A stretch of DNA of 64,000 bases from Sphingomonadales bacterium. GTDB lineage: Bacteria > Pseudomonadota > Alphaproteobacteria > Sphingomonadales > Kordiimonadaceae. The DNA is taken from assembly GCA_011088215.1 (NCBI GenBank), contig JAALKD010000012.1, positions 1 to 64,000 on the forward strand, written 5' to 3'. The position numbers and the translations under genes were made by a program. Below the pieces are notes generated by a model that saw only the letters and a program-made list of their open reading frames with translations, was not told the origin of the DNA and did no database searches. Position 1 is the stretch's first letter. Every line of letters starts with the position of its first letter. Below are positions 4,660 through 35,058 of this stretch, one piece after another.

Positions 4660-6827
<2,168 letters not shown>

Positions 6828-6831
6828 ACCA

Positions 6832-6852
6832 GCGCTCGGACATTCCGAGCGC
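6832..6852. terminator. Inverted repeat between convergent genes, possible bidirectional terminator
   Basis: gcgctcgg-acatt-ccgagcgc perfect 8-bp stem; no T-run. Confidence 0.4.
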
Positions 6853-6872
6853 CAGTAGTGCTTGTTGGATAC

Positions 6873-17207: not shown

Positions 17208-17732
17208 TTATTGACACCCAATGGCGCCTGCAACCGGCATGGCTGCCGACCATCCGGCTTTAGTGGTCACCGAAATACTACCGGAGGGTAATTTCAACCC
17301 CTGCTGCAAACTGCGAATTTGCTCAGGATTCACATCAACCTTGACCGTGACATCAGCAACCGTGAAGGTCTGCGTCTCGTAAAATTGCAGGGCAATTTGA
17401 TCGCCTGCGCTTGTGCGCGTCAGGCCAGCGGCAACGTCGTCCAAATGCATGAATGCGTCGCCACCGGAGCGCTGGAAAAACACCAAAGGCGTATCCTGGT
17501 GTTTGGCCCAAAGGAACAATCCGCATTCACCTGTAGGAATTTGCTGAGATGGCAACGGTTTTATCCGCGATAATACTTCATCGGTCCCCAAGGCCTCAAC
17601 AGGCACGGGGGCACTTTCAACATTGCTCGGTGTTTCCGGTGATGGACCGGGTGTGAGCGAACAGGCTGTGAGCAATAAAGATGCAAAACACAGAGCAATA
17701 GGCCTGAGGCCCGAAGGTTCCTTATTGATCAT
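17208..17732 (-). CDS. Uncharacterised lipoprotein co-encoded with the T2SS
   Basis: Lipobox LLLTACS; start overlaps gspN stop by 4 bp. Confidence 0.75.
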   Translation of the reverse strand: MINKEPSGLRPIALCFASLLLTACSLTPGPSPETPSNVESAPVPVEALGTDEVLSRIKPLPSQQIPTGECGLFLWAKHQDTPLVFFQRSGGDAFMHLDDVAAGLTRTSAGDQIALQFYETQTFTVADVTVKVDVNPEQIRSLQQGLKLPSGSISVTTKAGWSAAMPVAGAIGCQ

Positions 17733-18466
17733 AGTTGCATAACCACGTCGTTATACCAGCCATTCTGCTTCTGCTCGAAACCAAGTCGGCGCATGAAAAC
17801 AATCGCTGCGTCTGGAATAGCAGCCTCGCCAGCAAAACGCAAAACAAGCTCCAGGTTAACCGTATCAACGGCGACGAACTTCCCGGTGCCCGATAGCGTT
17901 CCAACGGCAAAACCCTGCTCAAACACAAACGAAAGCCGCCCATCTTCGCAGATAAAATTCGCAACTGTTTCGGTCAAATTTTTATCAAAATCCGCAAGCA
18001 ACGCAGCCGGAATGTTCGTGGTCAGACTCGCCTGCGCTAGCGTACATTGCCCTTGCTTGTCCCAGGCCAACTGAGCACCCGAAACCTTCACCAAACCTGC
18101 AACTGGCCGTGTACCCAAAGTGGTCTGCATCTGGCTTTCAGCTTCAAAATCCTCAAGCAAAACACCATCGAGCAAAGTTACCAAGCCAGACGCCTTTTGA
18201 TCAAGCCCGCTTAGCTCAACCTGCGCTTTTGCCAAACCCAAAACAGCCGACAGCGGCTTGAGAGATAAACGGACATCACCAAACGCTCGAGATCGCCAAT
18301 GAACATTAGTGAAAGTCGGTCTCCAAAAAGAGCCTTCAAGCCCTGAATAGCTAAGGGCAGCAGGAAGCTCGATAAAACGCGGCACAATCCGAGCAGGCGC
18401 AAAAACGATCAAAACACTGACAAAAACCAGCGCTGCAACGGCAAGAAGATACCTAAATTTCGTCAC
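17729..18466 (-). CDS. gspN: Type II secretion system protein N
   Basis: Position in gsp operon; GspN-like YSGLEGSFWRPTFTNVHWRS. Confidence 0.8.
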   Translation of the reverse strand: MTKFRYLLAVAALVFVSVLIVFAPARIVPRFIELPAALSYSGLEGSFWRPTFTNVHWRSRAFGDVRLSLKPLSAVLGLAKAQVELSGLDQKASGLVTLLDGVLLEDFEAESQMQTTLGTRPVAGLVKVSGAQLAWDKQGQCTLAQASLTTNIPAALLADFDKNLTETVANFICEDGRLSFVFEQGFAVGTLSGTGKFVAVDTVNLELVLRFAGEAAIPDAAIVFMRRLGFEQKQNGWYNDVVMQL

Positions 18467-18951
18467 GAAGAAGAATCCGAAAACTGCAATTGAACCCTCA
18501 GGTCGCCCGGGATTGAGGTCTTCTGGATCAGCACATTGCTCGGTCCCACCGCATAGGCCTTGGACAGTGTGTCAAGCCACAAGAATAGCTGCGGAGACTG
18601 GATTTTCTCTGCCCAGATAGTCAACGACCCGTCTTCCGAAGGTTGCAGACGACTAATGATCACACCAGACCTACGTGCCGCATTAGAAACTGCGGTGCGT
18701 AGGTTTTCCGGCCGCTGTGGTACGGCTGTATCCCCGGCCTCGCGGTTTGTAGCTTGCAGTTGGTTGGCATAGGATCGAACTGCCTGAAATTGGTCCAGCG
18801 CAGCGCTATATGAACGCTCGCTTTCAGCCTGATAGGCACCCAGCGGACGAATGGCCAGAAAATAAACGAGCGTCACCACCAGCAAAGTAACTGCTGCAGA
18901 AACCAGTGTTCGTTCGCGCACTGTTAGTGTTTGCCAATATGAATTCATCAT
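18463..18951 (-). CDS. gspM: Type II secretion system protein M
   Basis: Short single-TM protein in gspL-M-N order; 4-bp overlaps. Confidence 0.8.
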   Translation of the reverse strand: MMNSYWQTLTVRERTLVSAAVTLLVVTLVYFLAIRPLGAYQAESERSYSAALDQFQAVRSYANQLQATNREAGDTAVPQRPENLRTAVSNAARRSGVIISRLQPSEDGSLTIWAEKIQSPQLFLWLDTLSKAYAVGPSNVLIQKTSIPGDLRVQLQFSDSSS

Positions 18952-20063
18952 TGTCTGCGCACCTGAATTTCGGCAAAAATGCGCCCGCCCTCCTGGCAGC
19001 TACTGCCCTCGTTTATCCGCATACCTTCGCGGCGCAAAACATCATTAAACTTTGCAGTTTCGGCGAAAGAAAGGAAAGATACACTCAGCAATAGTGCGCC
19101 GTCGCTCTGGTCGTATCGCAAGCTTTCGAGAGACGCTGTGGTGTCGGACTCAATTGCTTTTACAACAACCGCTACAAGTGCAAAAAACTCGCCACCGCCC
19201 TCTTGATCGCGGACTAAAACTGCCCGGCGCATTTGTGCTTCCATGTTAACAATCCGCTGCACATCCGGCAGGCTTGTCCGAAATATCTGCTCAGACTCGC
19301 CGTACAGTTTTTCCGCACGACTAAAGTTTTCTGACGCCTCATAAAACGAAAGCGTTCCATATAACGCACTGGCAAACAATGCCAGATAAGCGGCTCTTTT
19401 CCACCAGACCAAGGCCGCCATCCAACTGTTTTTTTGCGCATATTCACTGTGTAGAAAATTACCAGTCAAATCAGCTGATTGCGACAGCAACTGTTGCCAT
19501 TCGCTCGGTGCAACCGGTTCCGCCTTCAGTGGTTCCGAAATTAGCTTTTCAACTAGATTTTTTTCGCCAGCCAAACCACTTCCGTCCGCATTTCGAACAA
19601 CAAAACGATCATGCAAGGCCACAATCTTTGCGCCACTAGCGGGCCGTGCCAGCAATGCAAAATCAGACGTCACCATATCTGGATTAACATTGAGCTCGGC
19701 AAGCCGTTCCAGTATTTTATTCAGAATCTTCTTTTCAATAACGGCAACAGGTCGCATACCAGTTTCAGGGTCGCGTTTGTCCAAAAGAGCGAACTGGTTG
19801 TCCTGAATATTGGTTGCAACTTTATCATCCATGAGACCGGGTAGGACCTTAACGAGCTTTGCATCATCAAGCGCAGGCATCGCAGCCAAATGTAGTGCCG
19901 TCAACCGACCGTCAACAACAATAACCACTTTTCTGGCCGTGCATGCGTCTGCCAGAGCGTTTTCATCAAGCACACGCTGCCAATCACCACTTTCAGAAAA
20001 CAAATTGGCCAATAGCGGCGCAGTCACGTCTTCTACTATTTCGATAACGACTAACTCGCTCAT
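18948..20063 (-). CDS. gspL: Type II secretion system protein L
   Basis: GspL cytoplasmic actin-like domain plus TM and periplasmic domain; operon position. Confidence 0.82.
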   Translation of the reverse strand: MSELVVIEIVEDVTAPLLANLFSESGDWQRVLDENALADACTARKVVIVVDGRLTALHLAAMPALDDAKLVKVLPGLMDDKVATNIQDNQFALLDKRDPETGMRPVAVIEKKILNKILERLAELNVNPDMVTSDFALLARPASGAKIVALHDRFVVRNADGSGLAGEKNLVEKLISEPLKAEPVAPSEWQQLLSQSADLTGNFLHSEYAQKNSWMAALVWWKRAAYLALFASALYGTLSFYEASENFSRAEKLYGESEQIFRTSLPDVQRIVNMEAQMRRAVLVRDQEGGGEFFALVAVVVKAIESDTTASLESLRYDQSDGALLLSVSFLSFAETAKFNDVLRREGMRINEGSSCQEGGRIFAEIQVRRQ

Positions 20064-21046
20064 GGTAACACCCCGCGTTGATGCGAAAGCAATCGGCCAA
20101 CGCCGGTGTCATCGACTTGAATAATTGAGTTCAAAGAGCTGGTTGCATCGAAATGCTTCACCCGAATACGGCTGATAAAACGCTGAGGTTTAACGGATGT
20201 TTGCCTGCGCACGCTCTGCTCTACCTCTCGCGTCGCCAACACGGGCTCCCGCCAGAAATCAGCGACATTATCGTAGCCTTTTCCGGGTCGTGACAAAATA
20301 AGCTCAATAGCATTTTCTAAACTAAAACCTTCACCAACAAGGCCGATCAAAAGCGCGGCCTCATCAACAGTCAGCGTATTGATATTTATCACAGAAGGCA
20401 TAGTCGTGTCAGAGGCGCAAACAAGCGGCGCCACAATAGACATAACGCCTGCATCATAGCCTTTGATTAAATGCAATTCCGATATGTCGGCAACCAAGGT
20501 ATTTGCGGTGCGGTAAGGCCGTTCCAACGCACCATAATCATAATCTTCAGCGCCAGACGGTGCCGGTCTGCTGTCGCTGTCGATCCAGTCAACCAAAGTT
20601 GCTGCCAATTGGTCAGCCTGCCGGTCGGAAATTCCAGCAGCCCCCAGCAGGCGACGATAGTGTTGAACATTGCCTGTGTTCGCTACGTATTTGCCATTTT
20701 CACGACGCTGGACCAAGCTGTTAACATTGAAGCAATTGCTCGCGTCGGCAATCAACCCATTGATGCGGCCACCTTCAATTTCAAAGGAAACTGGTCTGGG
20801 TTCATTTAACTGTGCCCCTTCGTTATAAAGACTTTCGGCGGCAGCAACTGCCAGCTGTTCTCCGCCGAGAGCGTACAAGCTAGCCTGATCAAACTGACGT
20901 TGGGCGCTGGACCGTTTTATCGAATAACCCAGAGCCTCAAAGGTCACCACTGCGCCAATAGCCATAACCGAAACAATTAGCAAAACCGTAACCAACGCCG
21001 CACCGGTTTCACCTTTGAACCTGAATGTTGCCAGGCCGCCAGTCAT
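20060..21046 (-). CDS. gspK: Type II secretion system minor pseudopilin K
   Basis: GAALVTVLLIVSVMAIGAV N-terminal pilin-like helix; LVDWIDSD...Y; NINTLTVDEAALLIGL. Confidence 0.9.
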   Translation of the reverse strand: MTGGLATFRFKGETGAALVTVLLIVSVMAIGAVVTFEALGYSIKRSSAQRQFDQASLYALGGEQLAVAAAESLYNEGAQLNEPRPVSFEIEGGRINGLIADASNCFNVNSLVQRRENGKYVANTGNVQHYRRLLGAAGISDRQADQLAATLVDWIDSDSRPAPSGAEDYDYGALERPYRTANTLVADISELHLIKGYDAGVMSIVAPLVCASDTTMPSVININTLTVDEAALLIGLVGEGFSLENAIELILSRPGKGYDNVADFWREPVLATREVEQSVRRQTSVKPQRFISRIRVKHFDATSSLNSIIQVDDTGVGRLLSHQRGVLP

Positions 21047-21657
21047 GCTTTCGTTCCCACAAGAAACATCATTTTAACCTCTTGGCCGGACCGAAAAATG
21101 ATACTGACCTCAGCCAGTCGCGGCAGATCAGAACTGTTGACGAGCGTTCCCCACTCTTCAACCCAAATTCCGTCAGCCGCATAACGCAGGGAGACGGACT
21201 GAACACCCGAAACAAGTTCCTGGTCGATAAAATCCGCCGCAGTTACAATATCCGTTCGGTCATATATCCGGCGATATAAGGTCTCGCCCGCAAGCATATA
21301 GTCTATGCGCTGAAGCGCGGACATATTGCCAAACAATGCCGCTGCAGGATTGCCGCCACGTACTAGGCGCAATAGCGCGCCCTCGGGCATTTGAATACCG
21401 CTTTCAAACGCAGCAATGGTATCGCCAAATTCATCACGGACCGGTCGGTTATGGGCTGCAAAAAAATCTGCCCTCATAATCGCCCGCGCCCGGTCAAGCG
21501 CCGCTAGCTGACTGCTTGCGTCTTGCAGTCTGATCCTGCTACTTTCAAAGCCTGACAAAATTGCAACTGCCGACGCGCTTACCATGGCAAAAATAAATGT
21601 CGCCACGAGCATTTCAACCAACGAGAAACCGGCATCTTTTCGCAAAGTCCGCTTCAT
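21043..21657 (-). CDS. gspJ: Type II secretion system minor pseudopilin J
   Basis: GFSLVEMLVATFIFAMVSASAVAIL prepilin motif; operon position. Confidence 0.88.
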   Translation of the reverse strand: MKRTLRKDAGFSLVEMLVATFIFAMVSASAVAILSGFESSRIRLQDASSQLAALDRARAIMRADFFAAHNRPVRDEFGDTIAAFESGIQMPEGALLRLVRGGNPAAALFGNMSALQRIDYMLAGETLYRRIYDRTDIVTAADFIDQELVSGVQSVSLRYAADGIWVEEWGTLVNSSDLPRLAEVSIIFRSGQEVKMMFLVGTKA

Positions 21658-21658
21658 A

Positions 21659-22063
21659 TCACTGACGCCCCCGGAAGCCGGTCAACCGGGCAAGCTCTCG
21701 CTCGTTCCCCTCTACGAACACCACAACATCTATAACCAGCAAATCACCGCCGGGTGCTGGTTTTACAGTTTCGCGCCACAGAAACTCTGCGCCCATCTGC
21801 TGGTCAAAACCTGTACGCGTGCCCGGTATCGGTGCCTCCACCAAACCCAAGCCAATGTTAAGGCGGTTTTCCGCGACAATAGACGCCAGACTGCGCTGTT
21901 CAATCGCACCAGTTAGCCCAATTGCCTGCGACTGACTTTCCAACAGTGTTACTGCCGCGAGCGAGAGTATTGTTACCGCCACCAAAAGTTCTACCAGCGA
22001 AAACCCACTGTCAGAACTACATATGGTGCGCCGCATTGCTCTAACCATTGTATAAAGCCTCAA
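21659..22063 (-). CDS. gspI: Type II secretion system minor pseudopilin I (start may be an internal Met near 22048)
   Basis: GFSLVELLVAVTILSLAAVTLLE prepilin motif. Confidence 0.87.
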   Translation of the reverse strand: MRLYTMVRAMRRTICSSDSGFSLVELLVAVTILSLAAVTLLESQSQAIGLTGAIEQRSLASIVAENRLNIGLGLVEAPIPGTRTGFDQQMGAEFLWRETVKPAPGGDLLVIDVVVFVEGNERELARLTGFRGRQ

Positions 22064-22535
22064 TCAACCCAGAAGCAGGCGCTGTAATCGATGCCTTTTC
22101 AGTCCCTGCTGACAGCATTAGATTGAAAGACGGATATTCGCCGGTCGGCAAAAACCAGATATGAGGATTCGTCTCCAACTCTGAAAAATCGATATCGACA
22201 TTATCGACTGCCAGTTCCAAAAGTCTGGCAGATGGCCAGCTTTGAACCTCTGGTTTCAAAATCGCATTTTCGACAACCCAGCCGTCGCTAGAAAGTCTGA
22301 CTGTTTCAAACCCCTCTGCAGAAAACCTCACTCCCAGTATCTGACCCGTCATAACACTGCGTCGGGACAATGCAGTCAGTGCCTCTTCGGTGCGCGCAGC
22401 CCGTTGTTCCAAGCCCGAATCACTAGTTGGTAAAGTCAAAACCACAACACTTGTCATCAAGCCAACAATGACCACCACGACCATCATCTCGACAAGGGAA
22501 AAACCGATTTCTGACTTTCTATTACGCATGCACAC
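22041..22535 (-). CDS. gspH: Type II secretion system minor pseudopilin H
   Basis: GFSLVEMMVVVVIVGLMTSVVVLTLP prepilin motif. Confidence 0.87.
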   Translation of the reverse strand: MCMRNRKSEIGFSLVEMMVVVVIVGLMTSVVVLTLPTSDSGLEQRAARTEEALTALSRRSVMTGQILGVRFSAEGFETVRLSSDGWVVENAILKPEVQSWPSARLLELAVDNVDIDFSELETNPHIWFLPTGEYPSFNLMLSAGTEKASITAPASGLIEALYNG

Positions 22536-22544
22536 AAGCCTTGG

Positions 22545-22994
22545 CTACCAATTACCTATATCGGCGTTCAGGCCTTCACCGCCGAGTCGGCCATCAGCTC
22601 CATAGGAAAAAACATCAAATGTGCCATGCTCGCCGGGAACCAGATATTGATATTGGTTACCCCAAGGGTCGGTCAGCAGCGATTTGATATATCCTTCAGA
22701 CCGAACAGCAGACCCGCGCGGCGCTTGTAGCAAAACATCGATGCCTTCTTCCAGAGAGGGGTAGCGTCTGGTGTCCAGTTTATAGAGTTCAAGCGCAGTT
22801 TCGATTAACCGCACATCTGCCCTGGCCTTTTCAACCATCGCTCGGTCCTGACTGGGTAAAACATTGACGACGACGATGGTAGTCAAAAGCCCTATAATCA
22901 CAATTACAACCATCAATTCGATCAGGGAAAACCCGACATCATCCCGTTTGGCCGCAAGGGCAATTTTCCGTAGTTTGCTGAATGATAATTCCAT
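22545..22994 (-). CDS. gspG: Type II secretion system major pseudopilin G
   Basis: GFSLIELMVVIVIIGLLTTIVVVNVLPSQDRAMVEKARADV; LLTDPWGNQYQYLVPGEHG. Confidence 0.96.
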   Translation of the reverse strand: MELSFSKLRKIALAAKRDDVGFSLIELMVVIVIIGLLTTIVVVNVLPSQDRAMVEKARADVRLIETALELYKLDTRRYPSLEEGIDVLLQAPRGSAVRSEGYIKSLLTDPWGNQYQYLVPGEHGTFDVFSYGADGRLGGEGLNADIGNW

Positions 22995-23005
22995 AAGTTT
23001 CTCTC

Positions 23006-24235
23006 CTACATCAGGACAAGGCTGTTGAGCCGTAATATTGGCAACATAATCGACAAAACAATCGCCCCGACAACAGCCCCCATAAAGATGACAATCATCG
23101 GCTCCAGAAGACTAAGGGCCGTTTTGGTATACCCGTCAAACTCGCTTTCAAGATAGTCGGCGGCTTTGTGCATCATATCGCCCAATTGGCCGCTGCGCTC
23201 TCCTGCTGCTGCCATATACGCCAACATGGGCGGCAGACCGCTCACACCGCGCAAGCTGCTTGCAACGCCTGTGCCTTCACGCACCTGCACAACGGCGGCG
23301 GCCACTTGTTTTTCGATCACCACATTTTTGACAGTTACTTTCGCCGCCGCCAGAGCTTCAAGAGCCGGGCTGCCACCTAGCACTAACGTGCCAAATGAGC
23401 GGGCAAACCGCGCAGCATTCACCGAACGGATAAGCCGTCCAACAATAGGCAATCGCAAAAGGCCAATATGAACAAAATATTGTATCGACGGGTAGCGCAT
23501 CAACACCACAAACCCAAAAACTGCCAAAAACAATAATACAGCCAGCATCAAACCATAGCTGGTCAAGAAGCCCGATGTGGCAACAACAATTTGGGTTAAC
23601 AGTGGCAATTCGCTGCCGAAGCTTTCGAACTGGGCCACAACCTTAGGCACCACAAGTATCATCAGCGCTGTCACAACGCCGATCGCAACCGTCATCAAAA
23701 CCGCAGGATAAATCAACGCGGACTGAACTTTTGATCGCATCTCTTCGGTTTTTTCGCGGTTTTCCGCAACCCGGCCAAGAACCGCGCCCAGCGATCCCGC
23801 CGCCTCGCCTGCTGCAACCATGGCGCAGTACAGCGGGTCAAAAGTGTCACTTTCCTGTGCCATAGCACCGGACAATCGCATACCTGCCATGACATGCGTC
23901 CGAACCCTGGTCAGCACGTCTCGAATTTCGGCTTTTTCAGCCTGCTGGACAAGTGCCGCCAGTACCTCTTCAACCGGCGACGCGGCTGCGATCATGGTCG
24001 CCATTTGACGAGTGACAAGCGCCACATCTTTAGATTTTATCCGTTGTTTTCGCCGGAAAACAGTAGAAAACCAGTCACCGTCTCGCCCAGCATCACCTGC
24101 GACAGCTTTAATCTCGGTGGCGTAAAGCTCGCGTACCATCAGGGTTTTACGAGCTTCCTTCTCACCCTCGGCGGCAATTGTACCCCGGCGGGTTTTTCCT
24201 GAGGCATCAATTGCGCTATAGTCAAACGCTTGCAC
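23006..24235 (-). CDS. gspF: Type II secretion system inner-membrane protein F (GTG start)
   Basis: FDYSAIDASGKTRRGTIAAEGEKEAR; GGSPALEALAAAK; start overlaps gspE stop; GTG at 24233-24235 replaces the upstream ORF-track start. Confidence 0.92.
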   Translation of the reverse strand: MQAFDYSAIDASGKTRRGTIAAEGEKEARKTLMVRELYATEIKAVAGDAGRDGDWFSTVFRRKQRIKSKDVALVTRQMATMIAAASPVEEVLAALVQQAEKAEIRDVLTRVRTHVMAGMRLSGAMAQESDTFDPLYCAMVAAGEAAGSLGAVLGRVAENREKTEEMRSKVQSALIYPAVLMTVAIGVVTALMILVVPKVVAQFESFGSELPLLTQIVVATSGFLTSYGLMLAVLLFLAVFGFVVLMRYPSIQYFVHIGLLRLPIVGRLIRSVNAARFARSFGTLVLGGSPALEALAAAKVTVKNVVIEKQVAAAVVQVREGTGVASSLRGVSGLPPMLAYMAAAGERSGQLGDMMHKAADYLESEFDGYTKTALSLLEPMIVIFMGAVVGAIVLSIMLPILRLNSLVLM

Positions 24236-25727
24236 TTGCCGCCTCCTGTATTCTGGAAACCCGAAGCACTTCCTCAATAGTGGTGGTGCCATCAAGCACC
24301 AGCTCGCGGCCATTTGACGCTAGCGTGTTCAACCCGCCAAAGGCGACCGCCTCAATATCTTGCTCGGAAGCGCCGTCCTGGATCATCCTACGAAGATCCG
24401 GTCCAATCAGAGCGAACTCGTATATTCCTATACGGCCTCGATACCCCTTGCCGCCGCAATCTGCACATCCGGCGCCTATTGTAGGCGAAAAGAAAGTTGC
24501 CTTTTCATCATCACCTGCACGGAAACGGTCTTTCAATTCATCAACATTGTCTGCGGGCTTTTTGCAGCTAATACACAGTTTCCTGACCAGTCGTTGTGCC
24601 AAAATCCCTTTGACTGTCGACGCCAGCAAAAAAGGTTCTACCCCCATATCGCGAAGCCGGGTAATGGCCGCAACAGAGCTATTGGTGTGCACGGTCGACA
24701 AAACAAGATGGCCGGTAAGACTGGCCTGGATTGCCATCTCAGCTGTTTCCATATCCCGAATTTCGCCGACCATGACAACGTCGGGATCCTGGCGCAATAT
24801 GGCACGCAATCCCGAAGCAAAAGTCATCCCAACCTTGGGATTCACTTGCGTTTGGCTGACGCCGTCGAGCGCATATTCTACCGGGTCTTCCACTGTCATG
24901 ATATTACGACTTTGGTCATTCAACAAACCAAGTCCCGCATAAAGAGTGGTTGTTTTGCCTGAACCGGTTGGCCCGCTGACCAAAATGATGCCATTTGGCT
25001 CTGACAGCAGCGATCTCAGTTTCTGCTCGCTGTCCGGTCTCATGCCCAAGTCTTCCAACGACAAATGTGCTTGCGATGCATCCAGAAGCCGTAATACCAC
25101 CCTCTCACCCTGCCTGGCTGGCAGTGTCGATACACGAACGTCAAATTCCCGAGAGCCCAGCTTAAGCGATAGCCTGCCATCTTGGGGAATTCGTTTTTCG
25201 GCAATATCCAGCCGCGCCATTACTTTGATGCGCGACACGATATAAGGCGTCATACGGGCTGCTAAACTAGCAACCTCGTTTAGAACACCATCAACGCGCA
25301 GTCGAACGGAAAGCCGGTTTTCAAACGGCTCCAGATGTATGTCAGACGCCACATTTTTTACTGCTTCTGCTATTAAGCTGTTGATAAGGCGAATAACCGG
25401 CGCATCGTCTTCGCTTGCCAACAAGTCTGCCGCAGCGGGCATGCCCTCAAGCGCCTGATCGAGGCTTTCGGCGGGCATCTCGTCACCGATATCAGAGTCG
25501 ATCGCGTCAACCGCGTGAATTTCAGACAACAACGTATCGAATTCTGGTCGTCTATAAGTTTCTAATTGCAGGCGTTTGCCAGCTATCCGCCTCACTTCTG
25601 GCAGCATAGCAACCACCGCATCATCACGCATGGCTACTTTGGCCGCATCGCCGCCGGTATTAATGATCGCAAATCCGTAATCGCGGGCGAAAGTATAACG
25701 AAGAATATGGTCCGACTTGTCGGTCAA
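24222..25727 (-). CDS. gspE: Type II secretion system ATPase E
   Basis: Walker A GPTGSGKTTTLYAGL; AILRQDPDVVMVGEIRD; tetracysteine CxxC (CISCKK...CADCGGKGYRGR). Confidence 0.97.
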   Translation of the reverse strand: MTDKSDHILRYTFARDYGFAIINTGGDAAKVAMRDDAVVAMLPEVRRIAGKRLQLETYRRPEFDTLLSEIHAVDAIDSDIGDEMPAESLDQALEGMPAAADLLASEDDAPVIRLINSLIAEAVKNVASDIHLEPFENRLSVRLRVDGVLNEVASLAARMTPYIVSRIKVMARLDIAEKRIPQDGRLSLKLGSREFDVRVSTLPARQGERVVLRLLDASQAHLSLEDLGMRPDSEQKLRSLLSEPNGIILVSGPTGSGKTTTLYAGLGLLNDQSRNIMTVEDPVEYALDGVSQTQVNPKVGMTFASGLRAILRQDPDVVMVGEIRDMETAEMAIQASLTGHLVLSTVHTNSSVAAITRLRDMGVEPFLLASTVKGILAQRLVRKLCISCKKPADNVDELKDRFRAGDDEKATFFSPTIGAGCADCGGKGYRGRIGIYEFALIGPDLRRMIQDGASEQDIEAVAFGGLNTLASNGRELVLDGTTTIEEVLRVSRIQEAASASV

Positions 25728-25736
25728 TATCTGTCC

Positions 25737-27737
25737 CTATTCCTGTAGCGGTGGAACCGGTTGCCCGCCCATCACATCTTTAACTAACTGATCAATTGTC
25801 AGGCCGCCCGAATTTACTTTGGATTGCTGACCACGAATGTAATCGTATTTTGTTGCTGTCAGCGCCTTGGCATCACCAGCGCTTCGAACAATTGTCGGAC
25901 GCAGGAAAATCATCAAATTTGTTTTTGCCCGGCTTTTACGGTCCGAACGGAACAAGCGCCCCAACAACGGAATATCACCCAAAAGCGGCACTTTATCGAC
26001 AGAAGTGATTTCGTCTTCTTGCACCAGGCCACCAAGCACAACGATGTCGCCACTTTGAATGCTTACTGTGGTCTCAATTTCGCGTTTGTTGGTTACGAGT
26101 TCGGTAAAGCTTGAACTGACCGGGCCGGCGATAGATGAAATTTCCTGGCGAATTTGCAGCCGGATTTCATCGCCATCGTTTATCTGCGGCGTAACTTCAA
26201 GCTGGATGCCCACATCCTTGCGCTCAATGGTCCGAAACGGATTGACATTGTTTGCACCGAGCGTTTCGCCGGTTGAAATCGGAATTTCCTGTCCTGACAA
26301 GAATTTTGCAGGTTCGTTGTCCATTGTCATGATTGACGGCGTAGAAAGAATATTGCTGCCGGTGTCTTGCTTAATTGCATTCAAAACGACGCCGAAAATT
26401 GTACCGCCATCTGTCTCACCAGCAGCACCAAGCGCAAAACCATTGAACCCTAGCAGCGAGTCTACTGCCGCTGCACCGAACAAGTCGCTTGCACTACTGG
26501 TGTCACTATCATCATCAGATGTTTGCAATGCACCTGCCAAAGCCAGTAAATTCGGCGCAGTATTGGAGTAGTTCGCCATGGTAAAGGGGATTGCGCTGTT
26601 GTCGCCGCCCGCCAGCAAATACTGCACACCAAGTTCTTTGGCGGCGCTGTCCGACACCTCAACCACAATAGCCTCAACCAGCACCTGCGCCCGGGCGACA
26701 TCCAGCATATTAATAACGTTAGCAATGCGCTGCTGCATTTCACTGGACGCATTGATAACAACCGCGTTCGCTCCAGCGTAAGCAGAAATAGACACGTCGC
26801 CGTCTGCTGAAATCGCTTTGCCTGATTTGTCCTTTCGAGACAAGGATTTGGTAACTGTCTCCAACATGGGCATCAGTTTTTCCGCATTTGCGTGTTTCAA
26901 ATAAATAACCCGCAAATCACCGCGTGACGCGTTGTTTTCATCCAATTCTCTCAGTACCGGGAGAAAGGTTTCAATTAAGTCCAACGGGCCTTTGAGAATG
27001 AGTGTGTTGCTGGAATCGAGCGGCATCGCGGTCAAAGACTGTAGAACGTTGTCGTCAAAGCCAGGCTGCGCAGCCAGTTTGAGCGCGATATCAGCCATCT
27101 CACCAGCAGAGGTGTTTTCCAGGGCCAAGGTGCGAATGACTGAATGGTCAACGTCCATGCTGGCAACCAACTGGGCGATGCGCTCCAAATTGTCGGCATA
27201 GTCGGTCACGATGACCACGGGCATGCCCTTGCGAGCGAAAACACGGCCATTTTTGAAAACAAATGGTTTCGCCGCAGCTTGCACGGCAAGGGGGTCTGCA
27301 TATTTCAGACTAAACACTCTGGTCATGAGCACGTCACCAGCGCGCTCCTGGTTTACTGGACCAGCATCCTGCGCGGCAATCTCGTCCGGCACAATTTTGA
27401 ACGCACCACTTGCAGATGGAACCAGAGTAAACCCATTCACTTTAAGTGCTGACAAAAATGTTTGGAAAACGCCTTCAACTGTCACTGTTTCAGAGGATAC
27501 AACGTTGATTTTGCCGCGCACCCGCGGGTCAATAATGAATGTTCTGCCCGTAATAGCGGCGATATCATCAATGAAAGCACGAATTTCTGCATCCCGGTAG
27601 TTCAGGATATGGCCATCGTCCTGTCCGTAAGCGACAGATACAGCTGCGACCTGAACGGCCATCAGCACTGCAAGACATTTGCCTAGCCTCTGAACCGTTT
27701 TTTGGGTCACCGTCAAACTTGTAAATATGCGCTTCAT
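25737..27737 (-). CDS. gspD: Type II secretion system secretin D
   Basis: N-domains, LVEAIVVEVSD, VGIQLEVTPQINDGDEIRLQIRQEISSI, VVLGGLVQEDE secretin motifs. Confidence 0.96.
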   Translation of the reverse strand: MKRIFTSLTVTQKTVQRLGKCLAVLMAVQVAAVSVAYGQDDGHILNYRDAEIRAFIDDIAAITGRTFIIDPRVRGKINVVSSETVTVEGVFQTFLSALKVNGFTLVPSASGAFKIVPDEIAAQDAGPVNQERAGDVLMTRVFSLKYADPLAVQAAAKPFVFKNGRVFARKGMPVVIVTDYADNLERIAQLVASMDVDHSVIRTLALENTSAGEMADIALKLAAQPGFDDNVLQSLTAMPLDSSNTLILKGPLDLIETFLPVLRELDENNASRGDLRVIYLKHANAEKLMPMLETVTKSLSRKDKSGKAISADGDVSISAYAGANAVVINASSEMQQRIANVINMLDVARAQVLVEAIVVEVSDSAAKELGVQYLLAGGDNSAIPFTMANYSNTAPNLLALAGALQTSDDDSDTSSASDLFGAAAVDSLLGFNGFALGAAGETDGGTIFGVVLNAIKQDTGSNILSTPSIMTMDNEPAKFLSGQEIPISTGETLGANNVNPFRTIERKDVGIQLEVTPQINDGDEIRLQIRQEISSIAGPVSSSFTELVTNKREIETTVSIQSGDIVVLGGLVQEDEITSVDKVPLLGDIPLLGRLFRSDRKSRAKTNLMIFLRPTIVRSAGDAKALTATKYDYIRGQQSKVNSGGLTIDQLVKDVMGGQPVPPLQE

Positions 27738-28592
27738 CTAGCCATTTCCTTCGAAGTTGACGGTTAGTTCAATCTTTTGGCCGCGCCGCTCTATTTCCAG
27801 CAGCAGGCTGGGCGAAAGCGGCAAGGCCTCGCTCACTTCCTGCAATCGTTCAAACGACGACAACTGTGATCCATTAACGCTTGTTAAAATATCACCGCCT
27901 TCCAGGCCAGTTCCCAAAAGCGCAAGCGGTGTTGGCTCCGGCAACATAAAGCCAATAATGCGGCGGTCACGGCGAACCGGCGTTAATTCCAAACTGGAAA
28001 GCAGCGGCCCTAACTGCGTTTCCGCACCCGATGCGTTGGTGCCGCGCATCAACTGCACAGGCTTTGCTTCAGTAGCAGTCCGTTCTCGTTGCGGTCGCAG
28101 ATACACTGCTTCTTTAACACCAGCACGCAGCAATTCCAGCCGGTCAGCGTAAACTGCTGCCAGCTCTACTCCTGAAGCAATTCTATCGCCAACTAGTATG
28201 AGTTTTTGCTCACCGTCTTGCAGTTTAATGATAGCCGTACCCGACCCGTCGATGCCGGCACGCAGGCCAAACACTTGAATATTTAATGTACTTTCGGGCA
28301 AGACGGCCAATGCCTGTATATTGCTCTCAACTGCATCCCGGAAAAAAGGATCAAATGAGAGAAGACGGCTAGTATCTTTAACTGCAGCTGGACGCTGGAT
28401 CGGCGGCGGGGGAACCAGTTGCTCTGGTTCGACCGCCAGCCTATTGAGGGTAAAGATTGCCAATAAAACAGCAATCAGGCCGACCAAAGCCAGCTCAACG
28501 AATATTATGCCCGCACGCATACCCCGCGAGAGCACAGAAGAACATTCAGAGCGAGGAGCCCTGTCCGCCGAACGAAATTCATCGTTATCCAT
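27738..28592 (-). CDS. gspC: Type II secretion system protein C
   Basis: HR-like domain and C-terminal PDZ-like GLEGGDILTSVNGSQL; first gene of the gsp operon. Confidence 0.86.
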   Translation of the reverse strand: MDNDEFRSADRAPRSECSSVLSRGMRAGIIFVELALVGLIAVLLAIFTLNRLAVEPEQLVPPPPIQRPAAVKDTSRLLSFDPFFRDAVESNIQALAVLPESTLNIQVFGLRAGIDGSGTAIIKLQDGEQKLILVGDRIASGVELAAVYADRLELLRAGVKEAVYLRPQRERTATEAKPVQLMRGTNASGAETQLGPLLSSLELTPVRRDRRIIGFMLPEPTPLALLGTGLEGGDILTSVNGSQLSSFERLQEVSEALPLSPSLLLEIERRGQKIELTVNFEGNG

Positions 28593-28712
28593 AGAGATAG
28601 TACGTCTCCATCGGCATTAACATTCTTTTTTTCCGGCTTCTTTTGGGCTAGTGTAAATCATACAACTCAAAAGATTCACCACGTACGAGATAGGCCTATT
28701 TTCTTTTGACGT

Positions 28713-31328
28713 CTAGAATTTATATGTAAAATCAAGTGAAACTGTCCGGCCGAGCTCGTAGCCTTCGGTAATAACACCATCCTGGCTAAACTCTATCTCA
28801 TCGCCTAACAAGTTCTCAGCCTCAATGCTCAATTCAAGGATATTACCCCAAGCCTCAAACTCTTTACTGTAAGCAACATTGAGCATCAACGGTGGACTTT
28901 CAAACTCGTCCGGCGCTTCAAAAACACCCACCAGCGCCAAACGCGTGCCAGTGTAGTTAAGAACAATCGCCAGGTTTTCACCGCGATCATAATCACGCCA
29001 ACCAAACTGTAGGTTACCCAACCATTCTGACTGCCCCTGGAACGAGCGCACTGCGTTGGTCACAACACCCAGGTCGGCCTCATCTGTTACGGTTTCGCCG
29101 TCAATGTATGACCCGTTGACCTTCATAAACAGTTCACGAGAACCGAGCCAGTCCCAACCAAACCAGTCCTGAAAAGGCAGAATTTTCTCAACTTCAACCT
29201 CAACACCCTTAAGTTCAGCAGAAGAAGCATTCACATAAGTGGCCAATCGGCCTTCGCCCAGTGCCCGACTGCTCTGCTCGATCGGGTTAGTGAACTCTTT
29301 ATAGAATGCCCCTACGGTCAGGCTTTCGCCGGATGCGAAATACCACTCAAAACGAGCATCAAAATTGTTAATCTCAGCGATACGAAGTTCCGGATTACCT
29401 TGATATGTCAGGCCGCGCTCATCATCGACAAATCTTGCGGTTGAAAGCTCGCGCAAGTCAGGGCGGTTGATGGTTTGGCTGAAGGCCAGGCGCACTTGCA
29501 TATTCTCGACAATTTCGTAGGTCATTGTCGCCGACGGCAACCAAAACTCGCCGCGCTGTGTCACCGTGATTGGCTCAAGCGTGATCCGGTCAACCGTGTC
29601 GACCACCTGAATACTGTCTTCGTAGCGAACTCCAAAAGCGATACGCATCTTTTCCGATACTTCAATATCAGCGCCCAGATACCCCTGAACATTTTCAAAT
29701 GTTGCGGTGTAAAAATCTGAAGCGTCAAAAATTTCGGTCAGCTCAATTTGGCCCGGACCGATGTTTGCCGGGCCGAAGATAATTTCAGGTGCAAGCTGGC
29801 GCAAGTCGGTGGTTACACCGGGCGGCAACTCGAAGTTATAGCGCACCAGGCCGAAGCTGCGGTCTTTATCTACGTATGTAAATCCACCCAGAATATCAAT
29901 CGGCAGATCAGCCACATACATAGGCTGCACAAAGTCCAAACCAAATTCTTTGGTTTCTTCATCAAGCGCGTTGTAGATGGTTGTGTTGCCGTCTGTACGC
30001 GCAAAAATCAGATCTGCGTTCAGTTGCGGATTGAATTCATAAACTGTGGTGCGGCGCAGCGGAACATCACGATCAGATCGCGAAATATTGGCGCGCCAAT
30101 TTATTTCTGTTTGCTGGAAGGTGTCGCTGTCACCAAATAGGCTAACGATATGCTCACCGGTAAGCTGATTGGTCCAAACCTGGCTCTCGATCCAGTCGAT
30201 GGTTGAGCGAGTGCGCAAACCATCTTCTTGAGCAAATAGACCTTTTTCAATCAGCGAGCGTTTGGTCGACTGACGCAGCACGGTGCCGGTATAGGAAATA
30301 GAATGATCCGCATTAAACTCGAAGCCAGCCGAAAAAAGCCCGTTTAACGAGACATCCAAATTGGTTTGGCGCAGACCGCAATCATCAAAACCGGCATCAA
30401 CAAAATCCGGGGATTCGCAAACCTCCGGAGCAAAGTTGGTCCGGATCACGGGCCCAGCGTTTGATGTTGTCACGGTGCGGCGCACGCCGATGCGGTTTCT
30501 GGTGTTTACATCGTAATCGACGGCCGCGAAGAAACCGAACGCACTTTCATCGCCGACATCAAACCGGTTGCCAATAACGAAATTCAGGCCCGCGCCCGGA
30601 TAGAGCTTCTCGCTATCGATAGACCAAATGTTCGGGATAGCCCGACCCGCCGCTTGAAGCTCTTCAGGTGTCAGGCTGACTAGCGATACATCTTGTAATA
30701 TTTCATCTGGGATGTTTCGGCGTGAGCCACCAAAACCAAATATTTCACTGCCAGTACCATCATAGCTCAGACCAGTTTTACCGGTTGATTCCGAGTTATA
30801 TTTACCGGAAATGCCAAATTCGAAAATGAACTCATCTGGTACAGTTTTTGTACGGAGGTCGATAACACCGCCACCAAATTCCGCAGGGTATTTCGGCGAA
30901 TAAGTTTTCTGCACCAATACCGATTCAATTATACTTGTCGGGAAAAGATCCAGCGGCACCACTTTACGCAACGGCTCCGGACTAGGGATGCCCGATCCGT
31001 TCAACAAAGTCGACGAATACCGATCACCAAGGCCGCGGACATAAACATATTTTCCGCCAACCAGCGACACACCCGGCAGCCGCTGCAACCCGGCCGCAAC
31101 ATTACTGTCGCCCGCGAGAGTGAATGCGTCAGCGTCGAGAACATTGGCGATCTCTGATGTTGCCCGTTTCTCGTCGGGAATATATCGCCCAAGAACTGTA
31201 ATTTCCTCAACATCGTCTGCGGGCTGCGGATTGTCCTGCGCCGAAGCCATCGACGGTGCCACCAACACCGTTGAAGCCATCAGCAAATATCTAATATTTT
31301 TCTGTTTCATTACCATCGCGACCACCAT
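28713..31328 (-). CDS. TonB-dependent receptor
   Basis: Plug LQRLPGVSLVGGKYVYVRGLGDRYSSTLLNGSGIPSPEPLRKVVPLDLFPTSIIESVLVQKTYSPKYPAEFGGGVIDLRTK; terminal aromatic residue (DFTYKF). Confidence 0.93.
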   Translation of the reverse strand: MVVAMVMKQKNIRYLLMASTVLVAPSMASAQDNPQPADDVEEITVLGRYIPDEKRATSEIANVLDADAFTLAGDSNVAAGLQRLPGVSLVGGKYVYVRGLGDRYSSTLLNGSGIPSPEPLRKVVPLDLFPTSIIESVLVQKTYSPKYPAEFGGGVIDLRTKTVPDEFIFEFGISGKYNSESTGKTGLSYDGTGSEIFGFGGSRRNIPDEILQDVSLVSLTPEELQAAGRAIPNIWSIDSEKLYPGAGLNFVIGNRFDVGDESAFGFFAAVDYDVNTRNRIGVRRTVTTSNAGPVIRTNFAPEVCESPDFVDAGFDDCGLRQTNLDVSLNGLFSAGFEFNADHSISYTGTVLRQSTKRSLIEKGLFAQEDGLRTRSTIDWIESQVWTNQLTGEHIVSLFGDSDTFQQTEINWRANISRSDRDVPLRRTTVYEFNPQLNADLIFARTDGNTTIYNALDEETKEFGLDFVQPMYVADLPIDILGGFTYVDKDRSFGLVRYNFELPPGVTTDLRQLAPEIIFGPANIGPGQIELTEIFDASDFYTATFENVQGYLGADIEVSEKMRIAFGVRYEDSIQVVDTVDRITLEPITVTQRGEFWLPSATMTYEIVENMQVRLAFSQTINRPDLRELSTARFVDDERGLTYQGNPELRIAEINNFDARFEWYFASGESLTVGAFYKEFTNPIEQSSRALGEGRLATYVNASSAELKGVEVEVEKILPFQDWFGWDWLGSRELFMKVNGSYIDGETVTDEADLGVVTNAVRSFQGQSEWLGNLQFGWRDYDRGENLAIVLNYTGTRLALVGVFEAPDEFESPPLMLNVAYSKEFEAWGNILELSIEAENLLGDEIEFSQDGVITEGYELGRTVSLDFTYKF

Positions 31329-31351
31329 TTGGCTTTCTTTTCTTATGCGCA

Positions 31352-31386
31352 GCGCCGCAGAGGAGCATATTGCTCCGCTGCGGCGC
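31352..31386 (-). promoter_or_regulatory. Strong intercistronic stem-loop between the lipoprotein and TonB receptor genes
   Basis: gcgccgcag-a-ggagca-tat-tgctcc-g-ctgcggcgc: 15 paired positions with one mismatch and a 3-nt loop; no T-run on the minus strand. Confidence 0.7.
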
Positions 31387-31399
31387 CCCGATCACATGC

Positions 31400-32707
31400 T
31401 TACTGATTGAGCCAAACTGTCCAACCCAGGGTCCAGTCATTGGCTGCATTTTCAACTGCACCGACATAAGTCGTTACATCAAAGAAGCTATCCAGTGCGT
31501 TGACATCTGTTGCCGTCACACCAGTTTCTGTTGCACCGTTAATATAGGTCTTGAAACTTGCTGCGCTCGCCAACCCGGTCAGAGTATCGGTTGCGACCTG
31601 ATTGTTGGCTTGGTTGTTGAACCAAGTCGCCAGATCGAACACGTTGCCGTCATCTTTGAAGACCGTGTTGCAACTGTCACTCAGCAGTGTCGATTCCATT
31701 GTGAGTGTACCGGTAAGGGTTGTTGCATCAGCGCCGGACGATGCGAATGTAGCATCCTGATCAATGTCGAGACAGGCATCGCCAAAGTCAGCCACAACCA
31801 CATTCCAAAGGTTACCGCCTGTACCTTCGCGGAGAAGAATACCAATGTCACTCTCGCCGCCAGCTGCCGCTGAACCGAGGATGGTTGCATTAGCAATTTG
31901 TGGCTGCGCACGCGGTAGGAAGTCGTTACCGTCACCGAAGTTATCAGCCTCAATGCCCTGGTCTGTTGCAGGCTGGTTCGGGTTCTGGATAATGACCAGA
32001 TGTTGCACCTTGCCGCGCCAACCCTGTGTCCAATCCAAGCTGTCATCATCTGCGCCGGTAATCACTATGTGTTTCGCTTGTGCTGTACCGCCGAAGAACT
32101 CGATGCCGTCATCAGCGCCGTTGTGCACCTGTAAGAAGTCGATTTCGGTGCTGGAACCAACACCCTGAAAAGCAATACCGTTCAATTCGTCATCTGCTGT
32201 AATTGGGTTACCTGCATAAACGACCCGGGTGTAGAAAATCTGACCGCTGCCGTCAGTATCGTCGGTGCCGCCGTATAGACCGCTATCGCCTTCGCCTTCA
32301 GCTTCACAGGTGCCTGAACCATTACAGGTGTTGATGGTTGCGCGGCCATTGATAACAAGGCCGCCCCAAAGTGACGTATCCACATCGAGATCGCGTGTAT
32401 CAGGGTTGGTGGCGGTGAAAGTTACCGGTGCATCCTGCGTACCGTTTGAATTCAACTTGGAACCGCGCGAGATAACCAGATAGGACGTATTGTCTTCACC
32501 CATGACGGTTACACCGGGCTCGATGGTCAAGGTCGCCGCGTCACCTGTAGCCAGTGGACTGGATGCATCCGGGCCCATATCAACGCCGAATACAACTTTG
32601 CCAGAAAGTTGGTAGTCAAGGCCAGAAACAAGGCGAAGGTCGTCGGTGTAAGTGCCCGACAATGTGCAAACAGTGCCGTCTGCGTTGGCCGTTGTGCCAG
32701 TTGGGCA
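31400..32707 (-). repeat. Intragenic repeat copy 2 (approximate bounds)
   Basis: Protein repeat starting CPTGTTANADGTVCTLSG. Confidence 0.8.
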
Positions 32708-34273
32708 CTCTGGGTCGGGGTTCAGGCCGTATGTCCAGTTCAGTGTCCAGTTATCAGCCACCGCGTCGCTTTTAACAGCGCCGGCGAAATCTACACTGTC
32801 AAAGAAGGCATTAATGGCACTTACGTCAGTCGCCGTTACAGCGTTTTCTGCTGAGCCGTTGATGAAGTTGTTGGACAATGTCGTTGCACCGACAACGTTA
32901 TTGGCCTGGCCAGTGAAATAAGCTTCAAGGTCAAACACATTGCCGTCGTCTTTAAATACTGTGTTGCAATCAGTACCCAGCAGAGTCGACTCGATTGTCA
33001 GTCCGCCGCTAAGACTAGTTGCGCTGGACCCAGCGTTGGTGAATGTCGCATCCTGGTCAATATCAAAGCATGCGTCGCCGAAATCAGAGACAACAGCGTT
33101 CCAGATATTCGCGCCGGTTCCTTCACGCAGTAGAATGCCGATGTCGCTTTCGCCGCCTTTTGACTGCGACCCAACAATTGTCAGGTTGGACAGTTCAGGC
33201 TGTGCCCGCGGCAGGAAGTCATTTCCGTCACCGAAATTATCAGCCTCAATGCCTTGGTCAGATGCTGGCTGGGCAGGGTTTTGAATAATGACCACAAACT
33301 GGCCCTTACCGCGCCAGCCCTGAGTCCAATCAAGGCTATCATCGTCTGCGCCTGTAATAACAAGGTGCTTAATCTGTGCAGTTCCACCGAAGAATTCAAC
33401 GCCGTCATCTGCGCCGTTGTGAACCTGAATGAAGTCCAACTCGGTGCCTGAACCAACGCCCTGAAAGGCAATTCCGTTCAATTCATCGTCTGCTGTAATC
33501 GGATTACCCGCGTATTTAACCTGAACGTAACGCATTGTACCGCTCGAATCGGCATCATTGTCACCGCCGTATAGACCACTGTCGCCTTCGCCTTCAGCTT
33601 CACAAGTACCCGAACCGTTACAAGTGTTCAGGGATGCTGCACCGTTTATGACCAGGCCACCCCATTCAGAGGTAAACGGCTCTTCCAGAAGCGCGCCGCT
33701 GAAAGACGACGCTGCAGTTAGGCCCAGTTCTGTTGCAAGATCGAGGTCCAATGCTGAAGTGAAAACAATGGGGTTGGTTGCGCTACCCGCGGCATCGATT
33801 TCAGAGCCGCGAGAGATAACCAGTACGTCGGAAGCCGTCGCGCCGTACAAAACCGCGCCAGCCTCAATGCTCAAAATAGCGCTATCGCCTGCCGCTGCCG
33901 TTCCGTCTGCTCCGGTGTCAACGCCGATGGTGACTTTACCAGAAAGCTGGTAAATATTATCGGCGGTCAAGGTAACGTCAGATGTAATTGTCCCCGACAG
34001 AGTACAGTGGGTTTGCTCGCCAACTGTTGCAGCTGACGTTCCAGTAGGGCATGTGCCTGCTGATGTATATTCGATGCCACCGCGACCAACTTTAACTGCT
34101 GGGTCTGGATTGGGACCCGGGTCAGGGTCCGGGTTGCCGCCCCCGCCAGTGCCCGGGTTGGGCGCAACGGTCCCAGGTGAGGCCAACTCAGTGCTGTCGT
34201 CGCCGCACGCAACCAACGCGACAGATGCGACTGCCGCCATTAAGGTGTTTTTGAATATCTGAAGGTTTGTCAT
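31400..34273 (-). CDS. Large lipoprotein with two tandem homologous ~440-aa domains
   Basis: Lipobox ALVACG; Pro/Gly/Asp linker; WGGLVING(R)A, CNGSGTCEAEGEGDSGLYGG, YAGNPITADDELNGIAFQGVGS, GADDDSLDWTQGWRGK, SDIGILLREGTG occur twice. Confidence 0.85.
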   Translation of the reverse strand: MTNLQIFKNTLMAAVASVALVACGDDSTELASPGTVAPNPGTGGGGNPDPDPGPNPDPAVKVGRGGIEYTSAGTCPTGTSAATVGEQTHCTLSGTITSDVTLTADNIYQLSGKVTIGVDTGADGTAAAGDSAILSIEAGAVLYGATASDVLVISRGSEIDAAGSATNPIVFTSALDLDLATELGLTAASSFSGALLEEPFTSEWGGLVINGAASLNTCNGSGTCEAEGEGDSGLYGGDNDADSSGTMRYVQVKYAGNPITADDELNGIAFQGVGSGTELDFIQVHNGADDGVEFFGGTAQIKHLVITGADDDSLDWTQGWRGKGQFVVIIQNPAQPASDQGIEADNFGDGNDFLPRAQPELSNLTIVGSQSKGGESDIGILLREGTGANIWNAVVSDFGDACFDIDQDATFTNAGSSATSLSGGLTIESTLLGTDCNTVFKDDGNVFDLEAYFTGQANNVVGATTLSNNFINGSAENAVTATDVSAINAFFDSVDFAGAVKSDAVADNWTLNWTYGLNPDPECPTGTTANADGTVCTLSGTYTDDLRLVSGLDYQLSGKVVFGVDMGPDASSPLATGDAATLTIEPGVTVMGEDNTSYLVISRGSKLNSNGTQDAPVTFTATNPDTRDLDVDTSLWGGLVINGRATINTCNGSGTCEAEGEGDSGLYGGTDDTDGSGQIFYTRVVYAGNPITADDELNGIAFQGVGSSTEIDFLQVHNGADDGIEFFGGTAQAKHIVITGADDDSLDWTQGWRGKVQHLVIIQNPNQPATDQGIEADNFGDGNDFLPRAQPQIANATILGSAAAGGESDIGILLREGTGGNLWNVVVADFGDACLDIDQDATFASSGADATTLTGTLTMESTLLSDSCNTVFKDDGNVFDLATWFNNQANNQVATDTLTGLASAASFKTYINGATETGVTATDVNALDSFFDVTTYVGAVENAANDWTLGWTVWLNQ
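32708..34051 (-). repeat. Intragenic repeat copy 1 (approximate bounds)
   Basis: Protein repeat starting CPTGTSAATVGEQTHCTLSG. Confidence 0.8.
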
Positions 34274-34381
34274 CTTGTTCCCCAGCGGCGACTTTCGCCA
34301 TCACGTTCATGATTTTTGTTGCGGATAGTCAGCGCAAAATCAGCGTGCCCATCCATGGGTCAAGACATGTAACGAGGAACT

Positions 34382-34410
34382 GTGACAGTTTGGTTTCGGA
34401 AGTATGACAC
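34382..34410 (-). promoter_or_regulatory. Candidate PhoB-like half-site pair upstream of the duplicated lipoprotein
   Basis: Minus strand GTGTCAT...CTGTCAC, starts 22 bp apart (two 11-bp units); TTACAT about 9 bp downstream. Confidence 0.35.
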
Positions 34411-34485
34411 TTTTTATTAGAGCTATGATATCTTGGGCGACGCTGTAGCATGCATGCGCTTACGGCCCAAAACCGAGCAGTTTTC

Positions 34486-35058
34486 CTATAGAAACAGCCA
34501 GGTTAGCCAGCCGCCCAGGCAAAGAAACAGGCCAAACGGCAAGGGTTGAGCCATCCTGTTTTGTTCAACTGGCTTTGGCGCGACCAGGCTTACAATCAAA
34601 GCAAACATCAATCCCGACAGCGATGCTATCAACAGAAGCGGCGGCAGCGACTGCCACCCCAGCCAAAGGCCAAGCCCAGCGAGCAACTTGGCGTCACCAA
34701 GTCCGATGCCGTCCCGTCCGCGAAGCATGCGGTATAAATAATTTAAGGTAGGAAACAAAATTAGTCCGACAACCGCGCCAACAACATGATGGGTAGGCCC
34801 GAAACGCGGGTACAACCAAACAGAAACGACGCCGCCAACTAACAGCGTCATGTTTAGAAGATTGGGCAGTCGAAAAAAACGCAAATCATACAAAGCTAAA
34901 GAAACAAGGTTTACGTATAAAAGCACGGACAACAGAAGGGGCTGATCCGATTTAAAGGCCAGCCAGGCAGTTGCTGCAACAATAACTGCGGCACTCAGAT
35001 AAAATCTTTTGCCTGTCAGTCCCGTGAGGATTTTTTCATCGGCAGGTATTTTAGTCAC
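34486..35058 (-). CDS. Type 4 prepilin peptidase (A24), short form, probable GspO
   Basis: Aspartate motifs YDLRFFRLPNLLN and GIGLGDAKLLAGLGLWLGW; no N-terminal methylase cysteine domain seen. Confidence 0.85.
   Translation of the reverse strand: MTKIPADEKILTGLTGKRFYLSAAVIVAATAWLAFKSDQPLLLSVLLYVNLVSLALYDLRFFRLPNLLNMTLLVGGVVSVWLYPRFGPTHHVVGAVVGLILFPTLNYLYRMLRGRDGIGLGDAKLLAGLGLWLGWQSLPPLLLIASLSGLMFALIVSLVAPKPVEQNRMAQPLPFGLFLCLGGWLTWLFL

Follow-up and report, generated by a model that had tools for sequence, protein, structure and literature searches.

The closest described system is the elpS locus of Caulobacter, in which the lipoprotein ElpS (CC0170), a TonB-dependent receptor (TBDR; CC0171) and the type II secretion system (T2SS) genes gspC to gspN form one block; the organisation is similar in Xanthomonas campestris, Sphingomonas alaskensis and Hyphomonas neptunium (PMC2996285). 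Phosphate starvation induces Caulobacter elpS (PMC2996285), and the T2SS is a category of the Caulobacter PhoB regulon (PMC11208175). Proteinase K digests ElpS in wild-type and ΔgspC-N cells alike; the T2SS is needed only for release of ElpS into the medium, via a secreted protease (PMC2996285). Lipoproteins that depend on GspN and the T2SS, such as InvL of Acinetobacter baumannii and PulA of Klebsiella, bear a Gly/Asp sorting motif (Gly/Ser or Asn/Asp) after the lipid cysteine (PMC12802150). SusCD and BtuBG of Bacteroidota are conserved adjacent gene pairs of a surface lipoprotein and a TBDR. Here we analyze a lipoprotein–TBDR–T2SS locus in a 64,000-nucleotide stretch of DNA (the window; contig JAALKD010000012.1 of assembly GCA_011088215.1) from a Sphingomonadales bacterium of the Kordiimonadaceae, a marine organism of Kordiimonas type. 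The source genome is 4.0 Mb in 147 contigs, and its nearest named relatives are Alphaproteobacteria metagenome-assembled genomes and uncultured Kordiimonas.

The block occupies the minus strand between 35682 and 17208 (Table 1). Its first gene encodes a small TPR-like protein (called by eye; Pfam gave no match), the next ones the prepilin peptidase GspO, then the 957-aa lipoprotein and a TBDR; the genes for GspC to GspN follow, and that of a small lipoprotein, sLP, closes the block. The majority of the gsp genes abut or overlap, operon-like. A first-pass annotation of the letters alone had placed T2SS genes, TBDR, 957-aa lipoprotein and prepilin peptidase in one minus-strand block, and its coordinates and gene calls are correct; it lacked two features, a tandem domain duplication in the lipoprotein and a Pho-box-like site upstream. 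It had also staked its reading on conserved synteny. Such synteny exists: the order elpS-TBDR-gspC..M is kept in 22/22 loci of sufficient length (L068–L089), so the arrangement is not a matter of chance, and the Pfam model detects gspN in most of them. Named Brevundimonas genomes have elpS, TBDR and gspC onward in the same order, and their ElpS proteins are 35–38% identical to the window lipoprotein. Because the Brevundimonas and published Caulobacter loci share both gene order and a homologous lipoprotein, the locus is of an already published kind. Judged by sequence, the 957-aa protein is related to ElpS, and the kinship with the Caulobacter arrangement that the annotation had suggested holds. 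Orthology to CC0170 and CC0171 themselves is putative, judged via the Brevundimonas comparison and gene order. The likeness probably extends to a phosphate link, to which the Pho-box-like array points. The differences are the two tandem domains of the lipoprotein (957 aa, versus ~50 kDa in Caulobacter), gspO lying upstream and co-directional, and the small lipoprotein after gspN.

Genome comparison indicates that the conserved unit is the ElpS–TBDR pair, to which a T2SS is commonly attached in Alphaproteobacteria. Among 50 ElpS loci from Alpha- and Gammaproteobacteria, 49 have a TBDR of the same family adjacent, with the T2SS linked, unlinked or absent; the receptor gene is directly downstream in 46 (as here), upstream in 3 and missing in 1. 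ElpS genomes outside Alphaproteobacteria have their T2SS elsewhere in the genome. Since adjacency is so nearly universal, the suggestion that lipoprotein and TBDR cooperate is well supported and likely correct. The first-pass annotation had further likened the pair to SusCD. This stands as a way of working, with an adjacent conserved pair of lipoprotein and receptor, and falls as a family assignment. The lipoprotein has no SusD match in Pfam or NCBIfam and is predicted to be a beta-helix instead; Pfam finds only Plug and beta-barrel in the TBDR, with no SusC-type N-terminal carboxypeptidase-like extension. The pair also differs from SusCD and BtuBG in its Pho-type promoter and its phylum. A sequence search of the PDB gave no match for the TBDR. 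In two loci, a gspC gene (T2SSC and PDZ domains; L228, 4153–5001; L235, 14956–15762) lies directly upstream of elpS-TBDR, with the other gsp genes elsewhere; it is possibly a dedicated substrate adaptor.

Phosphate control of elpS gains independent comparative support from upstream sequences. The array upstream of the window elpS reads GTGTCAT-actt-CCGAAAC-caaa-CTGTCAC. Under a three-unit Pho-box model, sequences upstream of elpS average 16.3 on the coding strand versus 13.9 on the reverse strand and 12.9 at -700..-400, and they outscore TBDR upstreams. The coding-strand score exceeds the reverse in 36/39 genera (p ~2e-7), and when periods of 8–14 were compared, 11 bp alone stood out. A genome-wide pattern search gave 5 matches in 4 Mb, 2 of them in 11-bp phase, one being the elpS promoter; judged from open reading frames, the remaining four are not near any evident phosphate gene. 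Consensus scans for promoters and terminators did no better than shuffles. In four gammaproteobacterial loci (L242, L245, L250 and L252), phoB or phoR stands beside the pair with scores above curated cut-offs (TIGR02154 in L252), and PhoB-like regulators below cut-off adjoin it in three further loci (L091–L093). The 3 x 11-bp Pho-box-like array over 39 genera and the four phoB/phoR neighbourhoods are new here; in the literature searched we found no published Pho-linked TBDR/lipoprotein pair beyond Caulobacter. The gammaproteobacterial locus L250 also has DUF3450 and ExbB-family genes directly after ElpS-TBDR (5913–8148), with phoR on the opposite side.

The 957-aa lipoprotein is encoded by a single-copy gene. 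Its lipobox (..VALVAC-GDDSTELASPG) places the lipid cysteine at Cys23, and the peptide GDDSTELASPG is followed by a Gly/Pro/Asp linker and two predicted beta-helix repeats (~residues 75–512 and 523–957). The halves are 60% identical, a tandem duplication of a ~440-aa domain that occurs once in Caulobacteraceae ElpS. In a tree of 64 domains, single-domain proteins (Caulobacteraceae, families f3 and f5) fall on one side with full support, and the first and second domains of two-domain proteins form mostly separate groups. Both halves of one protein cluster together in L080, L086 and L087, as expected from conversion or repeated duplication. No family in Pfam or NCBIfam and no sequence in the PDB matches the protein. 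Its AlphaFold model is built of stacked short strands, and the top Foldseek matches are parallel beta-helix proteins, PL6 alginate lyases first (E 1e-6); the best match has a low TM-score (0.23) and an aligned root-mean-square deviation of ~20 Å. Because model confidence is moderate and TM-scores are low, we take from the model only a predicted fold class, beta-helix. Seven acidic residues (D289, D290, E293, D311, D312, D315 and E343) show at least 99% conservation across 120 domains and lie roughly one coil apart, which suggests that both domains have an acidic stack, probably a site for a metal or ligand.

We lean, with moderate confidence, towards reading the locus as a PhoB-controlled phosphate-starvation module for surface capture, an ElpS-like lipoprotein with a dedicated TBDR, placed before a complete T2SS. 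The module would be SusCD-like in action but no SusCD member. At low phosphate, PhoB would bind the Pho box and activate elpS-TBDR and, probably in the same transcript, the gsp genes that follow. The lipoprotein, lipidated at Cys23, would be sorted to the outer surface along a pathway that generally does without the T2SS, as published for Caulobacter. There a phosphorus-bearing ligand may bind to the two beta-helix domains, both of which have an acidic patch, and be handed to the TBDR and imported in a TonB-driven step. The co-regulated T2SS would secrete hydrolases, and a T2SS-secreted protease might cut the lipoprotein in its linker and release it, as in Caulobacter.

Several observations weigh against this reading. 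Phosphatase activity was unchanged in a Caulobacter ΔelpS strain, and CC0171 is transcribed constitutively rather than with elpS (PMC2996285). Linkage of the pair indicates joint function and says nothing of ligand hand-over. The middle unit of the window Pho box is degenerate (CCGAAAC), its two-unit score taken alone (9/14) is no better than shuffles, and PhoB binding and low-phosphate induction in this organism are predictions. The lipoprotein model has a mean predicted local distance difference test score (pLDDT) of 66 and a predicted template modelling score (pTM) of 0.48. Finally, ElpS and the T2SS co-occur. We searched 398 Pseudomonadota genomes with an ElpS profile, scoring T2SS presence by T2SS protein M. 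ElpS had a strong match in 57, of which 47 have protein M, versus 131/341 of the others (p 3e-10, phylogeny uncorrected). Among Alphaproteobacteria, ElpS is found in 25/28 T2SS genomes. Because co-occurrence is far above chance, a T2SS role in export keeps some plausibility for genomes like this one.

Such a role was the central proposal of the first-pass annotation: the T2SS would export the lipoprotein to the cell surface, to work with the TBDR there. In the form weighed here, export would go through GspN, following the example of InvL and PulA. We consider this unlikely, though some findings fit it. The window has gspN, and GDDSTE after the lipid cysteine is Gly/Asp-rich, resembling the sorting motif of GspN-dependent lipoproteins (PMC12802150). 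Among genomes with protein M, gspN is present in 40/47 with ElpS versus 77/131 without (p 7e-4, phylogeny uncorrected). Two genomes of the same genus (G012 and G019, the latter 78% complete) have T2SS and sLP yet neither gspN nor ElpS. This hints at strict coupling of gspN and ElpS, a candidate rule that is broken by a third genome of the genus (G007, 80% complete), which has ElpS and T2SS with gspM directly followed by sLP and no gspN detected, and by several Brevundimonas-like genomes that keep ElpS and T2SS, again with no gspN detected. Nor does ElpS need the T2SS: 10 genomes with ElpS lack GspC and any convincing GspM (G054 has one marginal M match). The family thus extends beyond genomes with T2SS and gspN, and in Caulobacter its member is exposed without gspC-N (PMC2996285), the outcome that the annotation had named as refuting its proposal.

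The post-cysteine motif tells against the same proposal. In 49/53 alphaproteobacterial ElpS proteins, the short peptide after the lipid cysteine terminates in xPG or something close to it, and a variable low-complexity linker comes next; L071 and L073, two of the exceptions, merely have mis-called cysteines. Gammaproteobacterial proteins have CGGD or CGGGD at the lipidation site in 13/14 cases. The consensus is CGx..[DE][VIL]ASPG in Alphaproteobacteria and CGGDI[N/V/E] in Gammaproteobacteria. Lipobox and xPG motif are both kept in 9/9 T2SS-free alphaproteobacterial ElpS genomes. That the motif persists in genomes lacking a T2SS argues that it serves something other than T2SS export, e.g. docking onto the TBDR or sorting by another route.

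Lipoprotein, TBDR and T2SS could also be neighbours merely because the Pho regulon controls all three, the first two not cooperating physically. One shared Pho-type promoter could suffice to hold the genes together, but shared regulation by itself seldom keeps two particular genes side by side, and this pair stays adjacent across two classes though all its surroundings change; we regard the idea as quite improbable. Least probable of all, and very unlikely in our view, is that the ElpS-like protein acts chiefly as a secreted beta-helix enzyme or matrix protein (e.g. polysaccharide lyase-like) and a T2SS substrate, with the TBDR importing products independently: the PL6 and other beta-helix matches and the eventual release of Caulobacter ElpS into the medium (PMC2996285) fit it, but those matches reach fold class only, no lyase family hidden Markov model matches, and promoter and phoBR neighbours indicate phosphorus, not polysaccharide.

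More broadly, ElpS–TBDR may be a phosphorus-capturing equivalent of SusCD that is widespread in Proteobacteria and controlled by PhoB, with T2SS-independent sorting marked by the post-cysteine peptide; we offer this tentatively and think it somewhat doubtful. The locus bears on how lipoproteins reach the surface in Alphaproteobacteria and on how phosphorus compounds larger than porins admit pass the outer membrane. Both questions become testable here, since genomes with the same pair and its shared post-cysteine peptide differ naturally in whether they have T2SS and gspN. The two-domain ElpS form and the T2SS-linked small lipoprotein are concrete added targets.

Table 1. Features of the ElpS–TBDR–T2SS block, in window coordinates.
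Feature	Position	Strand	Basis or remark
gspO prepilin peptidase	34486-35058	minus	Peptidase_A24 match (Pfam/NCBIfam)
Pho-box-like array, 3 x 11-bp units	34382-34410	minus	~146 bp upstream of assumed elpS start
Two-domain ElpS-like lipoprotein, 957 aa	31400-34273	minus	Lipobox; domain and structure comparison
TBDR, 871 aa, putative partner of the ElpS-like lipoprotein	28713-31328	minus	Plug and barrel
gspC	27738-28592	minus	PF11356
gspD secretin	25737-27737	minus	Pfam/NCBIfam
gspE ATPase	24222-25727	minus	Pfam/NCBIfam
gspF	23006-24313	minus	Pfam/NCBIfam
gspG major pseudopilin	22545-22994	minus	Pfam/NCBIfam
gspH minor pseudopilin	22041-22535	minus	78.0 bits, slightly below curated cut-off 80
gspI minor pseudopilin	21659-22063	minus	Pfam/NCBIfam
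gspJ minor pseudopilin	21043-21657	minus	Gene order, prepilin N-terminus, similarity to relatives
gspK (T2SSK)	20060-21046	minus	Pfam/NCBIfam
gspL	18948-20063	minus	Pfam/NCBIfam
gspM	18463-18951	minus	Pfam/NCBIfam
gspN	17729-18466	minus	PF01203
Small lipoprotein sLP, 174 aa	17208-17732	minus	Cys24; T2SS companion in relatives

The small lipoprotein sLP follows the T2SS closely. Among 61 relatives it is present in 30/30 genomes outside family f5 that have T2SS protein M and in 0/31 others, the latter including two f5 genomes with a T2SS; it remains with the T2SS where gspN and the ElpS–TBDR pair are missing. The protein has two invariant cysteines in addition to lipid Cys24 and a predicted all-beta domain. 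It matched no Pfam or NCBIfam family, no PDB sequence and no known pilotin family or fold (PulS/OutS, AspS). The simplest guess is that sLP is a candidate new pilotin or other T2SS accessory; because Foldseek gave nothing significant, the pilotin idea is drawn from co-occurrence.

A second, divergent T2SS-like cluster lies elsewhere in the source genome (contig C110, locus L101, 8498–18300), with a secretin with N0, T2SSM_b, a PilN-like protein, J and K pseudopilins and an MshEN-type ATPase. The next gene downstream of the T2SS block in the window (15006–16889) encodes an exported DUF3604 protein (PF12228), a possible T2SS substrate; its position is kept in several relatives of the same genus.

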